DNA of 43,857 nt, taken from positions 1-43,857 of the forward strand of contig JABGRQ010000108.1 of NCBI GenBank assembly GCA_018648225.1. The letters are read 5' to 3'. A model generated the notes under the pieces. It ran no database searches and was not told where the DNA came from. It saw only the letters and a program-made list of their open reading frames with translations. Both the position numbers and the translations under genes were made by a program. This document shows, piece after piece, positions 39,212 through 43,857 of the stretch. The DNA is from Chloroflexota bacterium (lineage in GTDB: Bacteria > Chloroflexota > Anaerolineae > Anaerolineales > UBA11858). Each line of letters begins with the position of its first letter. Within the stretch, counting starts at the first letter, position 1.

Positions 39212-40555
39212 TTATCCTTCGTCGTGGTCGGGAAGGATGTCTTCGGCGTTGCGGATATAAGGGATGAAATACCCCATCAGGCCCCCCAGCGCGGCAGCCA
39301 GACCCACAAACGCGATTAACACCCCCATGCCTGCGCCGGGGCCGGTGCCGAAAAGCGGACCAAAAACCGCGGCTAACCCGCTGGAAGATTGCATGGCCGG
39401 TTCCATAACGAAGTCGGCCAGCGTGCCGCCGATGATGGGCGAGATCGGCTGTGCAAACCAGGCAATCAACCGCCGCGCCGAGAAAACGCGCCCCTGCAAG
39501 TCGGGGGAAACTTTGCTTTGCCAGATGGCCTGATTGGATGTGTTGATGAGCGGGAAGAAGAGCGCGGCTACGCCCATCACAACAATCCACAGCGTTGGCC
39601 CGGCATCCAGGCCCATCAAGGCGAATAAAATACCGCTCATCATCCAGCCCAAAAGTACACCATGCACGCGGCGCTTGAATCCGCCCCAGGCGCTGATGAT
39701 GACCGCCCCTAAAATACCACCCACGGCCCCGGCAGTTTGCACCGAGCCGAAGATGAGGCTGTCTTGTCCGGTGCGCGCCAGAATCATAGGCGCAAAAACG
39801 GTAAAGCCAATGCCGCTAAACAGATTGCCGAAGAAAAAGATGATCTGCAAACCGAGCAGGCTGGGGCGCTCAAAGATGTATTTGAAGCCGTACAATCCTT
39901 CTTGCCAGAGACTGCCGGAGGCTTTTTCGCCTTCGGTGGTCTGTTTGGGCTGCGGAATGTAGACCAGGAGCAGCGCCCCAATGGCAAAGAAAAACGTAAC
40001 CAGGTCAATCAGCATAATCAGTGCGAAGCTATCAAAGGGGCCATCCAAACTGAGCGCCAAAACCGCGCCAGCCAGCATGGGAGCCAACACGCCCGGCCCG
40101 GCTTCAACCATGGACATCATGCCGTTGGCGCGCCCGTATTGCTCTTTGGGAACCATCGTGGTGATAGCCGCAGAATAGGCAGGCCATTGGAAGGTATTCC
40201 CGAGGCCATTGACAACCGCGGCAACATAGAGATGCCAGAATTCCAAATGTCCCGTAGAATAGAGAATCAAAATGCCTGCTGTGGAGAGTACCGCGCCCAA
40301 ATCGCTGAGCATCATCATCAGCTTGCGGTTGTAGCGATCCACCATCGCCCCAGCGATGGGCGAAAGTAGTAGAAACGGTGTGATAAATGCCACCTGCATC
40401 AACCCCATTGCCGTGGCGCTCTCGGTTTGTTTATACATCCACAATGTCATACCGAAGTTGGTCATCATTGAGGCTAACACCGAGATAATCTGTCCCAGCC
40501 AGACAATGCTGAAGCCTAGCATCCCGGTGGGGCGTTTTTGCGTTGGTTGTTGCAT
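39212..40555 (-). CDS. MFS exporter (MFS_3/EntS-like)
   Basis: This 447-aa protein has about 12 helices. The loop motif GAMVDRYNRKLMMMLSD (helix 2-3) and a second DxxGRV-like stretch, SPDLQGRVFSARR, are typical of multidrug or siderophore exporters of the EntS/MFS_3 group. The C-terminus is charged (EDILPDHDEG). AAGGAG seven bases before ATG 40555 decides the start over a frame opening at 40597. Transcribed alone; substrate unknown. Confidence 0.9.
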   Translation of the reverse strand: MQQPTQKRPTGMLGFSIVWLGQIISVLASMMTNFGMTLWMYKQTESATAMGLMQVAFITPFLLLSPIAGAMVDRYNRKLMMMLSDLGAVLSTAGILILYSTGHLEFWHLYVAAVVNGLGNTFQWPAYSAAITTMVPKEQYGRANGMMSMVEAGPGVLAPMLAGAVLALSLDGPFDSFALIMLIDLVTFFFAIGALLLVYIPQPKQTTEGEKASGSLWQEGLYGFKYIFERPSLLGLQIIFFFGNLFSGIGFTVFAPMILARTGQDSLIFGSVQTAGAVGGILGAVIISAWGGFKRRVHGVLLGWMMSGILFALMGLDAGPTLWIVVMGVAALFFPLINTSNQAIWQSKVSPDLQGRVFSARRLIAWFAQPISPIIGGTLADFVMEPAMQSSSGLAAVFGPLFGTGPGAGMGVLIAFVGLAAALGGLMGYFIPYIRNAEDILPDHDEG

Positions 40556-40590
40556 GGGGGCACTCCTTGTTGAGTATTTTTTGCGCACGA

Positions 40591-40650
40591 CCCTCACCCT
40601 GACCTTCGCTATCTCTTCGTTTTGCTCAGAGCTTCGGCTCAGGGTGAGGG
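40591..40650. repeat. CCCTCACCCTGA/TCAGGGTGAGGG palindromic repeat
   Basis: Perfect 12-bp inverted ends, with CTTCG/GCTTCGG units inside. It lies upstream of the MFS exporter and may overlap its promoter. Confidence 0.7.
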
Positions 40651-40685: not shown

Positions 40686-40719
40686 AGAAGGCGCACAAGC
40701 CAACACTTGTGCGCCTTCT
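40686..40719 (-). terminator. Hairpin ending the SHOCT operon
   Basis: AGAAGGCGCACAAG and CTTGTGCGCCTTCT, loop 6 nt, 22 bp after the last operon gene. The T-run on the minus strand is weak. Confidence 0.65.
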
Positions 40720-40741: not shown

Positions 40742-41125
40742 TTACTCTATGAAAACTTCAATGTGTTCGCCATCTTCGGCGTCTACCACATCGACGATTT
40801 TCCCGGTCATGCCTTCGGCAATCGCCTCACTGACTGCAGTACCCAGTTCTTCAAAATCGACATCGGGCGTGAATTGGGCGGCAATATTCAACCCGGCGTC
40901 AATAAGTTTGAGTGGCAAATTGACATTAACTTTGGCTTTGCCCTTGTGCATATCGGTGACGCGCACGCGCAGCCAGCGTGCTCCGCTTGGGTTGGTTTTA
41001 TCGCTGCGTTTGGGTTTATCGCTGCTGGCGCTGAGCGCTTTAAGCAATTTTGCGCCCTCATCGGCAGAAATTTTGCCTTCTTGTATCATTTTCAGAATTT
41101 TCATGCGTTCTTCGGCTGTGGTCAT
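40742..41125 (-). CDS. SHOCT-like domain protein, soluble paralogue
   Basis: This 127-aa protein has an N-terminal SHOCT-like helical pair (EERMKILKMIQEGKISADEG), a short spacer and a beta/alpha domain starting WLRVRVTD and ending EDGEHIEVFIE. That second domain is clearly related to the end of the preceding gene product (WLHVRV ... DDGERVQVFIG). There is no membrane segment. GGAGACAACC before the ATG. Last gene of a four-gene operon, 12 bp after its neighbour. SHOCT-like units are thought to mediate oligomerisation; no enzyme motif is seen. Confidence 0.8.
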   Translation of the reverse strand: MTTAEERMKILKMIQEGKISADEGAKLLKALSASSDKPKRSDKTNPSGARWLRVRVTDMHKGKAKVNVNLPLKLIDAGLNIAAQFTPDVDFEELGTAVSEAIAEGMTGKIVDVVDAEDGEHIEVFIE

Positions 41126-41137
41126 GGGTTGTCTCCT

Positions 41138-41779
41138 CTATCCAATAAATACCTGTACGCGCTCACCGTCGTCGCCTTCGCTGACATCGACAAAGAGCGG
41201 GGTATCTTCGGTTTTGCTGTCGCCCAGGGCCAGGATGACTTCGTCCAGGCCGGTGGCATCTATATTGGGGATCAAATGCCCAAAGTTCCGTAAGCCCCAA
41301 GCGGAGAGGCGGATGGGCAGCGGAAAGCTGATACTAATCCGTTGGGGTTTTTCACCCGTTTTTTGCTTGACGCGTACATGCAACCAGGGCGAAGTTTGGC
41401 TGCTCCAGGCGATAGCCATAAACAGCACCCCGATTAAAAAGGGCATCCAGGTGCAGGCGAACCAGAAGCCAAACCCCGACGCGTGCCAGGCCCAATACAT
41501 GAGCAATCCGCTGAACGCGGTAACACCCGCCCCAACGTACAACGGAATCAGCCACCAGCGCTTCCAGCGGGCGATCTCTTCGGGGTCGGGGGCCATGTTT
41601 TCTTCGCCGCGAATCTCATTGGGGAGAATTTCTGCCTCGGTAGCAGAATCCACACCGGAGGAGTTATGCTCGTCCGGTTCGGCATTCAGCGCTTGCAGCA
41701 GATTGAATCCCTCCTCTGCGTTGATAATGCCCTGATCGATCATCCCCAGGATTTGTTTGCGTTCTTCGGAAAGTGGCAT
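41138..41779 (-). CDS. SHOCT-like domain membrane protein
   Basis: This 213-aa protein has an N-terminal SHOCT-like unit (EERKQILGMIDQGIINAEEG), an acidic linker (about 35-65), two membrane helices (about 74-96 and 98-121) and a C-terminal domain (WLHVRVKQ ... DDGERVQVFIG) paralogous to that of the next gene. Both ends should face the cytoplasm. It lies 3 bp after the preceding gene with no ribosome site of its own, so translation is probably coupled. Unknown function; the two helices could place the operon's products at the membrane. Confidence 0.8.
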   Translation of the reverse strand: MPLSEERKQILGMIDQGIINAEEGFNLLQALNAEPDEHNSSGVDSATEAEILPNEIRGEENMAPDPEEIARWKRWWLIPLYVGAGVTAFSGLLMYWAWHASGFGFWFACTWMPFLIGVLFMAIAWSSQTSPWLHVRVKQKTGEKPQRISISFPLPIRLSAWGLRNFGHLIPNIDATGLDEVILALGDSKTEDTPLFVDVSEGDDGERVQVFIG

Positions 41780-41782
41780 GAT

Positions 41783-43018
41783 TTATTTGCCCTCCAACGC
41801 TGATAGCAACTCTTCGGCCTGGTCTACGCTGATGCTGTTGTCTTGCAACATTTTGAGAATGAGCAGGCGCTCTTCGTCGCTGACCGGATCGGCGCCAGTT
41901 TTGGCGGCGGATTGCAGCGCGTCCACATCAATGGAAAACGATTTATGGGATTGTTTGCGAGTTTCGCGCACCGCTTTGCGTTGGGCGGCGGCTAGTTTTC
42001 GCTCCAGGTTGGCCTGGGCGCGTTCGGCGGCTGCCTGGGCGCGCTGTGATGCCTTCAGGCGGGCCTGCTCGAGGCGTTGGTAAATTTCTTGTGAACGCTC
42101 GGCGGGCAGACCGGCTTCTTCGAGGGTTTTTGAAAGGCCGGATAAGTGTTCGTTGAGTGAGCCAAGCTGGGCTTCGATTTGTTCGGTAGCCTGGCGGGTG
42201 ATGCTCTCGGCCATGCGGCTGAAATCGCCCTCGAGATGGATGTCAAAAGAGTCGTCATTATCCCAATCGGAATCCAGGCCGACGAGTTCAATTTTCCCCC
42301 CGGCGTTGAATTGGATGCTGGTGCCGCCTTCACCAAATTCGGCGGTGTACAGCCCTTCGCGGACGGTTTCGCTGCGATTTGGGAAAGAAAGCTGAATTTT
42401 CTGCGCCCCGCTGCTGAAAGCAATTTCGGCGTTCAGGTCTTCGGGGGCATGGCAGCGAAGATTGCCCCCCGCAGTGATGTTGTAGGCCTGCCAGGGCACG
42501 GGCGAAATTTCGATGCGGGCGCTGCCCCGGGCTACGGCAGTCACGCCGCCGCTGACATCGCTCAGGCGCAGGTTGCCGCCGATGCTGGCGGCAGCGAATT
42601 GACCATCAATATCGCGCACACGCGCCCCGCCGCCAATTGTGCCCACGCGCAAATCGCCGCGCACGCGTTTGGCCGAAAATTCGGCGCCCACGTTTTCGAC
42701 GTTGGTTGCGCCGACATCGCGCAGCGTCAGCCCGCCGCCCACAGTGTGGATTTTGGTAACGCCCTCCAGGGCTTGCAGGCGTACATGTTTACCGACCTGC
42801 TGAATATTCAATTTAGAATCGTGTGGGGCGTAGAGAATGCAATCTTCGGGGCAGCTAATCTTTAGGGCTTTATCGCTCAATTCAAATACAATTTTGTTTT
42901 CGCAAGTCGTTTTTAGCAGCGCTTCACTGCGTTTCCAGCCCTTGATGTGCAGGTCTCCGGCAACTTGCTCAACGAATATTTCGGGCGCAGGCCCGAGTTC
43001 GAGTGATTTTTGCACCAT
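41783..43018 (-). CDS. DUF4097-like beta-repeat protein with C-terminal SHOCT unit
   Basis: This 411-aa protein has three parts. Residues about 15-240 are short beta repeats with GG/DLR steps (VAGDLHIKG, GDLRVGTIGGGARV, IGGNLRLSDVSGG), as in DUF4097/YvlB-type adhesin-like polymers. Residues about 255-350 form a long Ala/Gln/Glu/Arg coiled coil (QRAQAAAERAQANLERKL). Residues about 380-411 are a SHOCT-like unit (EERLLILKMLQDNSISVDQA). There is no signal peptide. The frame opens at 43126, but ATG 43018, one base after the regulator stop (TGAGATG), is the clear start. It may assemble into filaments at the membrane. Confidence 0.8.
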   Translation of the reverse strand: MVQKSLELGPAPEIFVEQVAGDLHIKGWKRSEALLKTTCENKIVFELSDKALKISCPEDCILYAPHDSKLNIQQVGKHVRLQALEGVTKIHTVGGGLTLRDVGATNVENVGAEFSAKRVRGDLRVGTIGGGARVRDIDGQFAAASIGGNLRLSDVSGGVTAVARGSARIEISPVPWQAYNITAGGNLRCHAPEDLNAEIAFSSGAQKIQLSFPNRSETVREGLYTAEFGEGGTSIQFNAGGKIELVGLDSDWDNDDSFDIHLEGDFSRMAESITRQATEQIEAQLGSLNEHLSGLSKTLEEAGLPAERSQEIYQRLEQARLKASQRAQAAAERAQANLERKLAAAQRKAVRETRKQSHKSFSIDVDALQSAAKTGADPVSDEERLLILKMLQDNSISVDQAEELLSALEGK

Positions 43019-43019
43019 C

Positions 43020-43406
43020 TCAGGCCTCGCCTTCTTCGAGCAATTTGATGGCGTCTTCGTAGCTGATTTGCCCCGCATCCAGGTCTTCGAGTACTTTGCG
43101 GCGGGCAGTTTCGGAAAGCGCGCCATCTTCGGGGGCGCCGGGTTCGTGCCCCATCGCCCGAATGACTTCGTGCAGCCGATTGCGAATGGTCGGGTACGAG
43201 AGATTTAGCTCTTGCTCCATGCGATTGATTTTGCCTTCGCAGCGCACAAAGGTTTCTACAAATTCGAGTTGCTTGCTGGAAAGTTGGGCAAAAAACGTAC
43301 CCGCCGAAAAACGGCCTTCGTAGGTTGTATCGCATTCGCGACAGTAAATTTTTGTAACTGTGACTTCGCCGCTGCAGAAGGGACATTGGGTAGGGAGAGT
43401 GTGCAT
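43020..43406 (-). CDS. DUF2089-family zinc-ribbon HTH regulator
   Basis: This 128-aa protein has a zinc ribbon C8-x2-C11 ... C22-x2-C25, then a helix-turn-helix (about 55-92; INRMEQELNLSYPTIRNRLH) and a C-terminal SHOCT-like tail (ARRKVLEDLDAGQISYEDA). DUF2089 proteins are presumed DNA-binding regulators. It leads the operon, AAAGG lies before the ATG, and a terminator-like leader hairpin precedes it. It likely controls its own operon. Confidence 0.88.
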   Translation of the reverse strand: MHTLPTQCPFCSGEVTVTKIYCRECDTTYEGRFSAGTFFAQLSSKQLEFVETFVRCEGKINRMEQELNLSYPTIRNRLHEVIRAMGHEPGAPEDGALSETARRKVLEDLDAGQISYEDAIKLLEEGEA

Positions 43407-43423: not shown

Positions 43424-43485
43424 TAAAAAAACGCCCGGAGGTTCCGAATTGCAAAACAGGGTTGCTGACCGGTATCCCCGGGCGT
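43424..43485 (-). terminator. Terminator or attenuator before the DUF2089 gene
   Basis: On the minus strand ACGCCCGG ... CCGGGCGT followed by TTTTTTT, with about 46 nt between the arms that hold further G/C-rich segments (ACCGGTCAGCAACCC). It lies between a 59-aa gene and the operon leader gene on the same strand. The large structured loop is unusual for a plain terminator. Confidence 0.65.
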
Positions 43486-43497
43486 GGGGGTTGTATC

Positions 43498-43677
43498 CTA
43501 ACCGGCGTGCAATACTGTGCCGTATTGATGGCGGGCTTGCAGACGGCGTCCCACGCGGATTAACAGCGTCCCTAAGATGGACAACAAATCATGCTGCGCC
43601 GGGGAAGGGGGGATTTGGGCGGCGGCTTCAAGTGTTTGGTGCTGGCGAATTTTTGCCATTTCAAATGTTGCGTACAT
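43498..43677 (-). CDS. 59-aa small protein of unknown function
   Basis: A short frame from ATG 43677 with AAGGAG eight bases upstream and a consensus-like promoter. It is mostly helical: MAKIRQHQTLEAAAQ, then LLSILGTLLIRVGRRLQAR, an amphipathic helix rich in Arg. It could bind membrane or nucleic acid. It precedes the DUF2089 operon on the same strand, separated by the terminator-like hairpin, so read-through might link them. No family recognised. Confidence 0.65.
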   Translation of the reverse strand: MYATFEMAKIRQHQTLEAAAQIPPSPAQHDLLSILGTLLIRVGRRLQARHQYGTVLHAG

Positions 43678-43724
43678 GTGGTGCTCTCCTTGTGAAAATT
43701 AGGTGGCACTTAAATCTAAATGAT

Positions 43725-43752
43725 ATTGTACGCAAAAATATTAATTTGTCAA
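43725..43752 (-). promoter_or_regulatory. Promoter of the 59-aa gene
   Basis: TTGACA and TACAAT with a 16-bp spacer on the minus strand, in very AT-rich DNA. It may drive the whole right-end cluster by read-through. I see no gene in 43753-43857. Confidence 0.75.
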
Positions 43753-43857
43753 TAGTAAAACTTGAAAATATTGAAATTTGTATTGTTATTATTAATATTC
43801 CGCGTATTCGTTCAGTCAGTTGAAAACCGAAAACAGACAAGTGAAAAAAGTTCGGGA

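Follow-up and report, generated by a model that had tools for sequence, protein, structure and literature searches.

A four-gene DUF2089/Toastrack operon of an Anaerolineae bacterium with a SHOCT-like hairpin on every protein and a TTNAA array at its promoter

Why would a regulator, a beta-structured protein, a membrane protein, and a small soluble protein, encoded side by side, all carry the same short helical unit? The question is raised by one locus of a 43,857-nt contig (JABGRQ010000108.1; hereafter the window) from a Chloroflexota bacterium. The initial annotation described a tight operon of four genes with a SHOCT-like unit on each product, placed C-terminally in the first two proteins and N-terminally in the other two, and suggested that the set forms an assembly that couples membrane state to transcription. 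Here, we ask how much of this holds, what else belongs to the unit, and how it may be controlled.

The four proteins and their shared hairpin

All four genes lie on the minus strand, and the gaps between them are 1, 3, and 12 bp, as had been described. The first, REG (43020–43406), encodes a DUF2089 protein of 128 aa in which a zinc ribbon and a helix–turn–helix (HTH) precede a SHOCT-like hairpin at the C-terminus. TOAST (41783–43018; 411 aa) has a Toastrack beta-helix (beta-ladder) and a long coiled-coil hairpin, and it too ends in a SHOCT-like hairpin. In MEMB (41138–41779; 213 aa), an N-terminal SHOCT-like hairpin is followed by two transmembrane helices and a C-terminal domain that we call WLRVRV. 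SMALL (40742–41125; 127 aa) is soluble, with an N-terminal SHOCT-like hairpin and a C-terminal WLRVRV domain. The unit is thus at the ends where it had been placed, and the two hydrophobic segments of MEMB (approximately residues 75–95 and 101–127) bear out its description as a two-helix membrane protein. No transmembrane segment is predicted in TOAST.

The shared unit is PF22746 (SHOCT-like_DUF2089-C), with E-values of 1e-12 for SMALL, 1.9e-7 for TOAST, 2.9e-6 for MEMB, and 2.7e-4 for REG. It is distinct from the original SHOCT family (PF09851): no match to that model was listed with any operon protein at E up to 1, so the anticipated similarity of the tails to SHOCT profiles holds for the former family and not for the latter. 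Against a cut-off of 27 bits, SMALL (47.6), TOAST (30.9), and MEMB (27.1) score above and REG (20.9) below. REG carries the weakest tag, but this tag is backed by leave-one-protein-out profiles, in which a profile built from three tails was searched against the fourth. Median scores were 23 bits for REG, 35 for TOAST, 42 for MEMB, and 52 for SMALL; because these far exceed the residue-shuffled controls (≤8.4 bits), the similarity of the tails goes beyond chance. A genome-wide search of the 4.02-Mb assembly returned exactly four PF22746 matches, all in the operon, and together with the profiles this rules out a chance likeness. AlphaFold models place the hairpin at H4–16/H21–33 in SMALL and at H381–392/H398–408 in TOAST (model pLDDT 85).

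Such hairpins might act as membrane-surface anchors, so that the proteins co-localize without direct contact, an arrangement compatible with either sign of transcriptional control. Inner-leaflet anchoring is proposed in the main text of Ravi et al. (2024; PMC11237479). However, REG has to reach DNA, and mutual docking would account for four tags confined to one operon no less well; we consider pure anchoring somewhat unlikely.

REG passes the DUF2089 cut-offs for the zinc ribbon and HTH (PF09862 and PF22747, 74.4 and 40.8 bits; E-values 5.4e-21 and 2.4e-10), and it is the sole PF09862 match of its genome. The CPxC/CxxC and SYPTxR motifs are invariant among 26 homologs. For TOAST, a Foldseek search with the predicted model found 4qrk as the best match (E 1.8e-6), along with 3lyc, 4opw (1.1e-3), 3ljy, and others; 4QRK and 4OPW are the reference Toastrack structures named in the main text of Ravi et al. 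(2024). The fold of the model places TOAST among the Toastrack proteins, and its sequence is divergent: the DUF4097-type Toastrack Pfam models (DUF4097/DUF2154/DUF2807) gave no match to it at E up to 1, and the NCBIfam LiaG model gave only 12.5 bits. Pfam matches to PspC, LiaF, LiaI-LiaF-TM, or B-box were found in none of the four operon proteins. The LiaX model NF038025 (cut-off 350 bits) reached 15.9 bits, covering only the N-terminal hairpin of MEMB. PDB sequence searches with SMALL and TOAST gave no convincing match, and an Rfam search across the operon gave none.

Beyond what the initial annotation had noticed, MEMB and SMALL share a second domain. Their C-terminal domains are homologous (BLAST 3e-9), and on sequence grounds the two proteins are paralogs that have this domain in common besides the SHOCT-like tag. 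Its name comes from the motif WLRVRV...V.V.LPL..., and no Pfam model for it was found across 28 homologs. In SMALL, it is predicted to fold as beta-beta-alpha-alpha-beta-beta. The SMALL model (pLDDT 73.5, pTM 0.48) gave a best VIA-align Z of 5.0, for the hairpin only, and with this model Foldseek returned no match at E up to 0.001.

Gene order in relatives and similarity to described systems

The REG-TOAST-MEMB-SMALL order is kept in 56 of 80 loci of relatives, and several of the others are cut by contig ends; given the shared ancestry of these loci, the counts are descriptive only. Of the 21 genomes from the organism's own family, 19 have PF22746 matches, and the four-gene order is kept in most. 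Because the tails share profile similarity and the order is conserved, neither of the two observations that would count against the initial proposal (dissimilar tails, an unconserved gene order) holds. A relative of SMALL is present in 128 of 301 Chloroflexota genomes. In more distant families, the constant part is REG plus SMALL, to which a Toastrack gene is usually added, and this pair is the operon core. The pair is also found on plasmids of Paraclostridium, Niallia, and Embleya (Bacillota and Actinomycetota; phyla outside Chloroflexota were sampled unevenly). Many relatives (L050, L131, L134, L164, and others) have a second Toastrack gene, after SMALL or after the first one, often also with a SHOCT-like end.

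The initial annotation regarded the set as having no described function. This is only partly so. In their main text, Ravi et al. (2024; PMC11237479) report Toastrack genes together with DUF2089 (ZnR-HTH-SHOCT-like) in a four-gene context found in several bacterial lineages, and they predict that it acts in a lia-like way, passing a membrane signal to transcription; the kind of operon was therefore already known. As there, a DUF2089 ZnR/HTH/SHOCT-like regulator sits here among Toastrack genes in a four-gene unit. The partners differ: LiaI-LiaF-TM, B-box, or PspC in that main text, and here a SHOCT-2TM-WLRVRV protein with its SHOCT-WLRVRV paralog. Relative to the same text, though the overlap may be larger, the present operon adds a tag on every protein, a promoter array, and linkage to genes of the major facilitator superfamily (MFS). 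We found no description in the literature surveyed (with Ravi et al. compared by main text) of an all-tagged paralog pair with WLRVRV, the array, the upstream ORF, or the exporter linkage. What does stand is that no experimental function for DUF2089 was found in the literature surveyed.

Two other systems invite comparison. The LiaX/YvlB proteins of Firmicutes (liaXYZ, yvlABCD) likewise join a SHOCT-like or alpha-helical part to a Toastrack-type beta domain, have membrane-protein neighbors, and play a role in envelope stress. Two-hybrid assays show contacts of YvlB with PspA-family and Yvl membrane proteins (PMC9239133), and LiaX senses antimicrobials (PMC10269926). In contrast, the operon here has no PspC or LiaF match, its control is predicted to run via a one-component DUF2089 protein, and the SHOCT-like part, which is N-terminal in YvlB (Ravi et al. 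2024, main text), is C-terminal in TOAST, after the coiled coil. Leaderless bacteriocin clusters (thucin, bawcin, enterocin DD14) resemble the operon in that DUF2089 is encoded close to genes for export and for a small membrane protein. However, that DUF2089 protein is shorter (89 and 98 aa in two clusters vs. 128 aa for REG), export is of ABC/HlyD type, PH-domain genes occur in some clusters, and neither a Toastrack gene nor SMALL is among the listed genes. In our survey (loci L275, L276, and L277), DUF2089 genes were seen near leaderless bacteriocin genes in Lactiplantibacillus and Priestia, and one adjoins an SbmA/BacA-like peptide transporter gene on a Legionella adelaidensis plasmid.

The promoter array and its candidate reader

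The unit extends both upstream and downstream of the four genes, again beyond the initial annotation. Upstream, a promoter scan found TTGACA-N16-TACAAT at 43725–43752 on the minus strand. Exact TTGACA/TATAAT pairs occur in 46 of 131 upstream regions of relatives and in none of the shuffled ones, with spacers of 15–19 nt (16 in nearly all). Embedded in the promoter is an array of TTNAA half-sites (43724–43798, minus strand) that alternate at 9 and 12 bp to give a 21-bp period. Self-match at lag 21 has a z of ∼15 in relatives when anchored on the −35 element and ∼13 in the repeat run; lags 20 and 22 are far lower, further signal appears at 9, 30, and 42, lag 10 is near zero, and lag 11 is negative. 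The final unit extends across the −35 element into the spacer, and the units upstream are phased with the −35 element at 21 bp.

The array tracks the operon closely. In a weight-matrix scan of 3.28 Mb on both strands, strong sites are nearly all at operon promoters. The sequence-only model R1 ranks the window array first genome-wide (E 6.8e-5), the window being one of its 28 training rows. When a sequence-only model was applied to 21 family genomes, the operon site came out on top in 11 of the 12 outside the training set (G001–G010, G013, and G020). Only in G004 does it rank second, behind a site that precedes an ORF0-like gene (see below) at a contig end. In MFS-first operons, the array precedes the MFS gene and so still heads the operon. 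In one genome it also lies ahead of a detached MFS gene, and in a different genome ahead of an additional copy of SMALL. A control set of other promoters retained a lag-21 z of 5.8. Sorted by eye and post hoc, its array-bearing members mostly precede MFS-first units, and others precede a second SMALL copy or lie farther upstream of REG than the region cut; the control class TTGACAAATAGACAA, sorted in the same way, is without the array. A recurrent, array-free, promoter-like TTGACAAATAGACAA...TATAAT (TACAAT in one case) was seen near operons L084, L104, L107, L112, L115, L170, and L180.

The array could instead be an UP element or a stretch of curved DNA, or a different protein could bind there, with REG acting elsewhere. 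Its region is 75% A/T, an A/T-rich UP element is reported upstream of liaX in E. faecium (PMC10269926), and REG genes occur without the array. Yet the positive lags, together with the near-zero and negative values at 10 and 11, argue against phased A-tracts, the units run past the −35 element into the spacer, and the array specifically follows the operon and detached family members. We therefore think this explanation quite improbable.

From the array evidence, we infer that REG is the protein that binds it. The predicted recognition helix reads SYPT(I/L)R at array-bearing loci vs. AYNTAR at many array-free ones, although SYPT is retained at some of the latter. Upstream of the Paraclostridium DUF2089 gene there are TTNAA repeats with 9/12 spacing, in DNA that is very A/T-rich. 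The array was undetected in high-GC Chloroflexota families that retain REG and SMALL, and AYNTAR is the helix sequence in many of these. A Chloroflexota-wide array can be ruled out, as it was seen mainly in Anaerolineae. The search for a regulon beyond the operon in the organism's own genome was likewise negative, with no other full-length site and weaker matches mostly to the promoter half.

The direction of control is suggested by the position of the last unit: because it overlaps both the spacer and the −35 element, in a promoter close to consensus, we propose that the operon is repressed and that REG acts as a repressor rather than an activator. Conversely, REG could be an activator, or a co-activator resembling sigma region 4, that, bound in phase to the upstream TTNAA units, would recruit RNA polymerase, with the membrane SHOCT assembly keeping it inactive by PspA-PspF logic. 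The helical phasing of the upstream units with the −35 element at 21 bp fits polymerase contact, and sequestration by a membrane partner is a known psp theme. However, a promoter already near consensus is rarely in need of an activator, and the location of the last unit is typical of repressors. On this balance, activation seems unlikely.

Flanking genes and a possible membrane-stress circuit

Between the promoter and REG lies ORF0 (43498–43677, minus strand; 59 aa). It is upstream of REG in all seven genomes of the genus, with a codon-position pattern of coding sequence, and its C-terminal stretch is hydrophobic and basic (LLIRVGRRLQARHQYG). Short ORFs resembling it follow the array in other family genomes. 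A terminator scan found an attenuator- or terminator-like hairpin with a 10-bp outer stem and U7 between ORF0 and REG (43431–43485, minus strand). By eye, three of the seven genus members retain it, whereas those with a gap of 15–29 bp lack it, and it folds no better than shuffled sequences (z −1.0). Attenuation at this hairpin is possible.

Downstream of SMALL is an MFS exporter gene (39212–40597, minus strand; PF07690, 5.8e-33). It begins 144 bp after SMALL, or ∼187 bp with the likely ATG at 40555. Related MFS genes, which fall into two subfamilies, accompany the operon in 36 of the 80 loci; they lie between MEMB and SMALL, immediately downstream of SMALL, or immediately upstream of REG. In five loci, the stop of SMALL and the start of the MFS gene overlap, and no opposite-strand MFS genes of these subfamilies were found in the 949 kb surveyed. 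The organism's own genome has 29 MFS matches in 4.02 Mb. In the window, co-transcription of SMALL and the MFS gene is uncertain because a strong 15-bp hairpin without a U-tract separates them (40686–40719, minus strand; fold z −6.9). In genome G015, an array promoter lies ∼750 bp before the detached MFS gene (L264; reversed locus 1308–1381), and this gene is likely a second regulon member.

The explanation that we favor, held at slightly short of even confidence, is a lia/psp-like membrane-stress operon in which REG represses both the operon and the exporter, and a SHOCT assembly at the membrane lifts the repression. The SHOCT and WLRVRV domains of MEMB would both be cytoplasmic, as predicted from the inferred topology, and MEMB, TOAST (as a beta-helix scaffold), and SMALL would form a sub-membrane assembly via SHOCT–SHOCT or SHOCT–membrane contacts. 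REG would be a one-component Zn-ribbon/HTH DNA-binding protein with a tail able to join it. In unstressed cells, REG oligomers would sit on the tandem TTNAA-N4-TTNAA units and keep the operon off. Membrane perturbation, by analogy from antimicrobial peptide- or drug-like compounds, would draw REG to the assembly; with repression lifted, ORF0, the four proteins, and often the MFS exporter would go up. Recruitment via the SHOCT tail is suggested by the shared tag and the LiaX/YvlB analogy, and membrane-active compounds are the presumed signal given the links of DUF2089 to leaderless bacteriocin clusters and of the operon to MFS genes.

We favor this explanation because the four homologous tags are on operon proteins and nowhere else in the genome, gene order is conserved, and the Toastrack fold was found; because the near-perfect promoter bears an array of 21-bp period that tracks the operon and detached family members; and because of the split in recognition helices, the Paraclostridium repeats, the occurrence of DUF2089 genes in leaderless-bacteriocin and export clusters, and the reported YvlB contacts and LiaX sensing. 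It is weakened by the high-GC families in which the array was undetected, SYPT at some array-free loci, the SMALL/MFS hairpin, the weak REG tag, the nonindependence of the 80 loci, and the potential of A/T-rich upstream DNA to serve as UP elements. The suggestion that an assembly couples membrane state to transcription is supported in part, by an operon of a regulator and a membrane-linked scaffold with a common domain and conserved order.

Taken jointly, the SHOCT-like hairpin could be a shared plug by which a one-component regulator of the DUF2089 type is linked to a Toastrack scaffold beneath the membrane. DUF2089 would read tandem TTNAA-N4-TTNAA at a 21-bp period and the circuit would control MFS drug-type exporters across Anaerolineae, as a stress-sensing architecture with no kinase, PspA, or PspC in the operon. 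In this full form, we regard the reading as doubtful. Proteins with DUF2089 and SHOCT-like parts are widespread, and we found no demonstrated function for them. The operon is a compact test case, with one tag on four proteins, an operator predicted at base level, and a likely output in MFS export. If true, the proposal would account for the link between a soluble regulator and the membrane, would give an orphan family of regulators a binding site, and would point to an efflux regulon in Chloroflexota.
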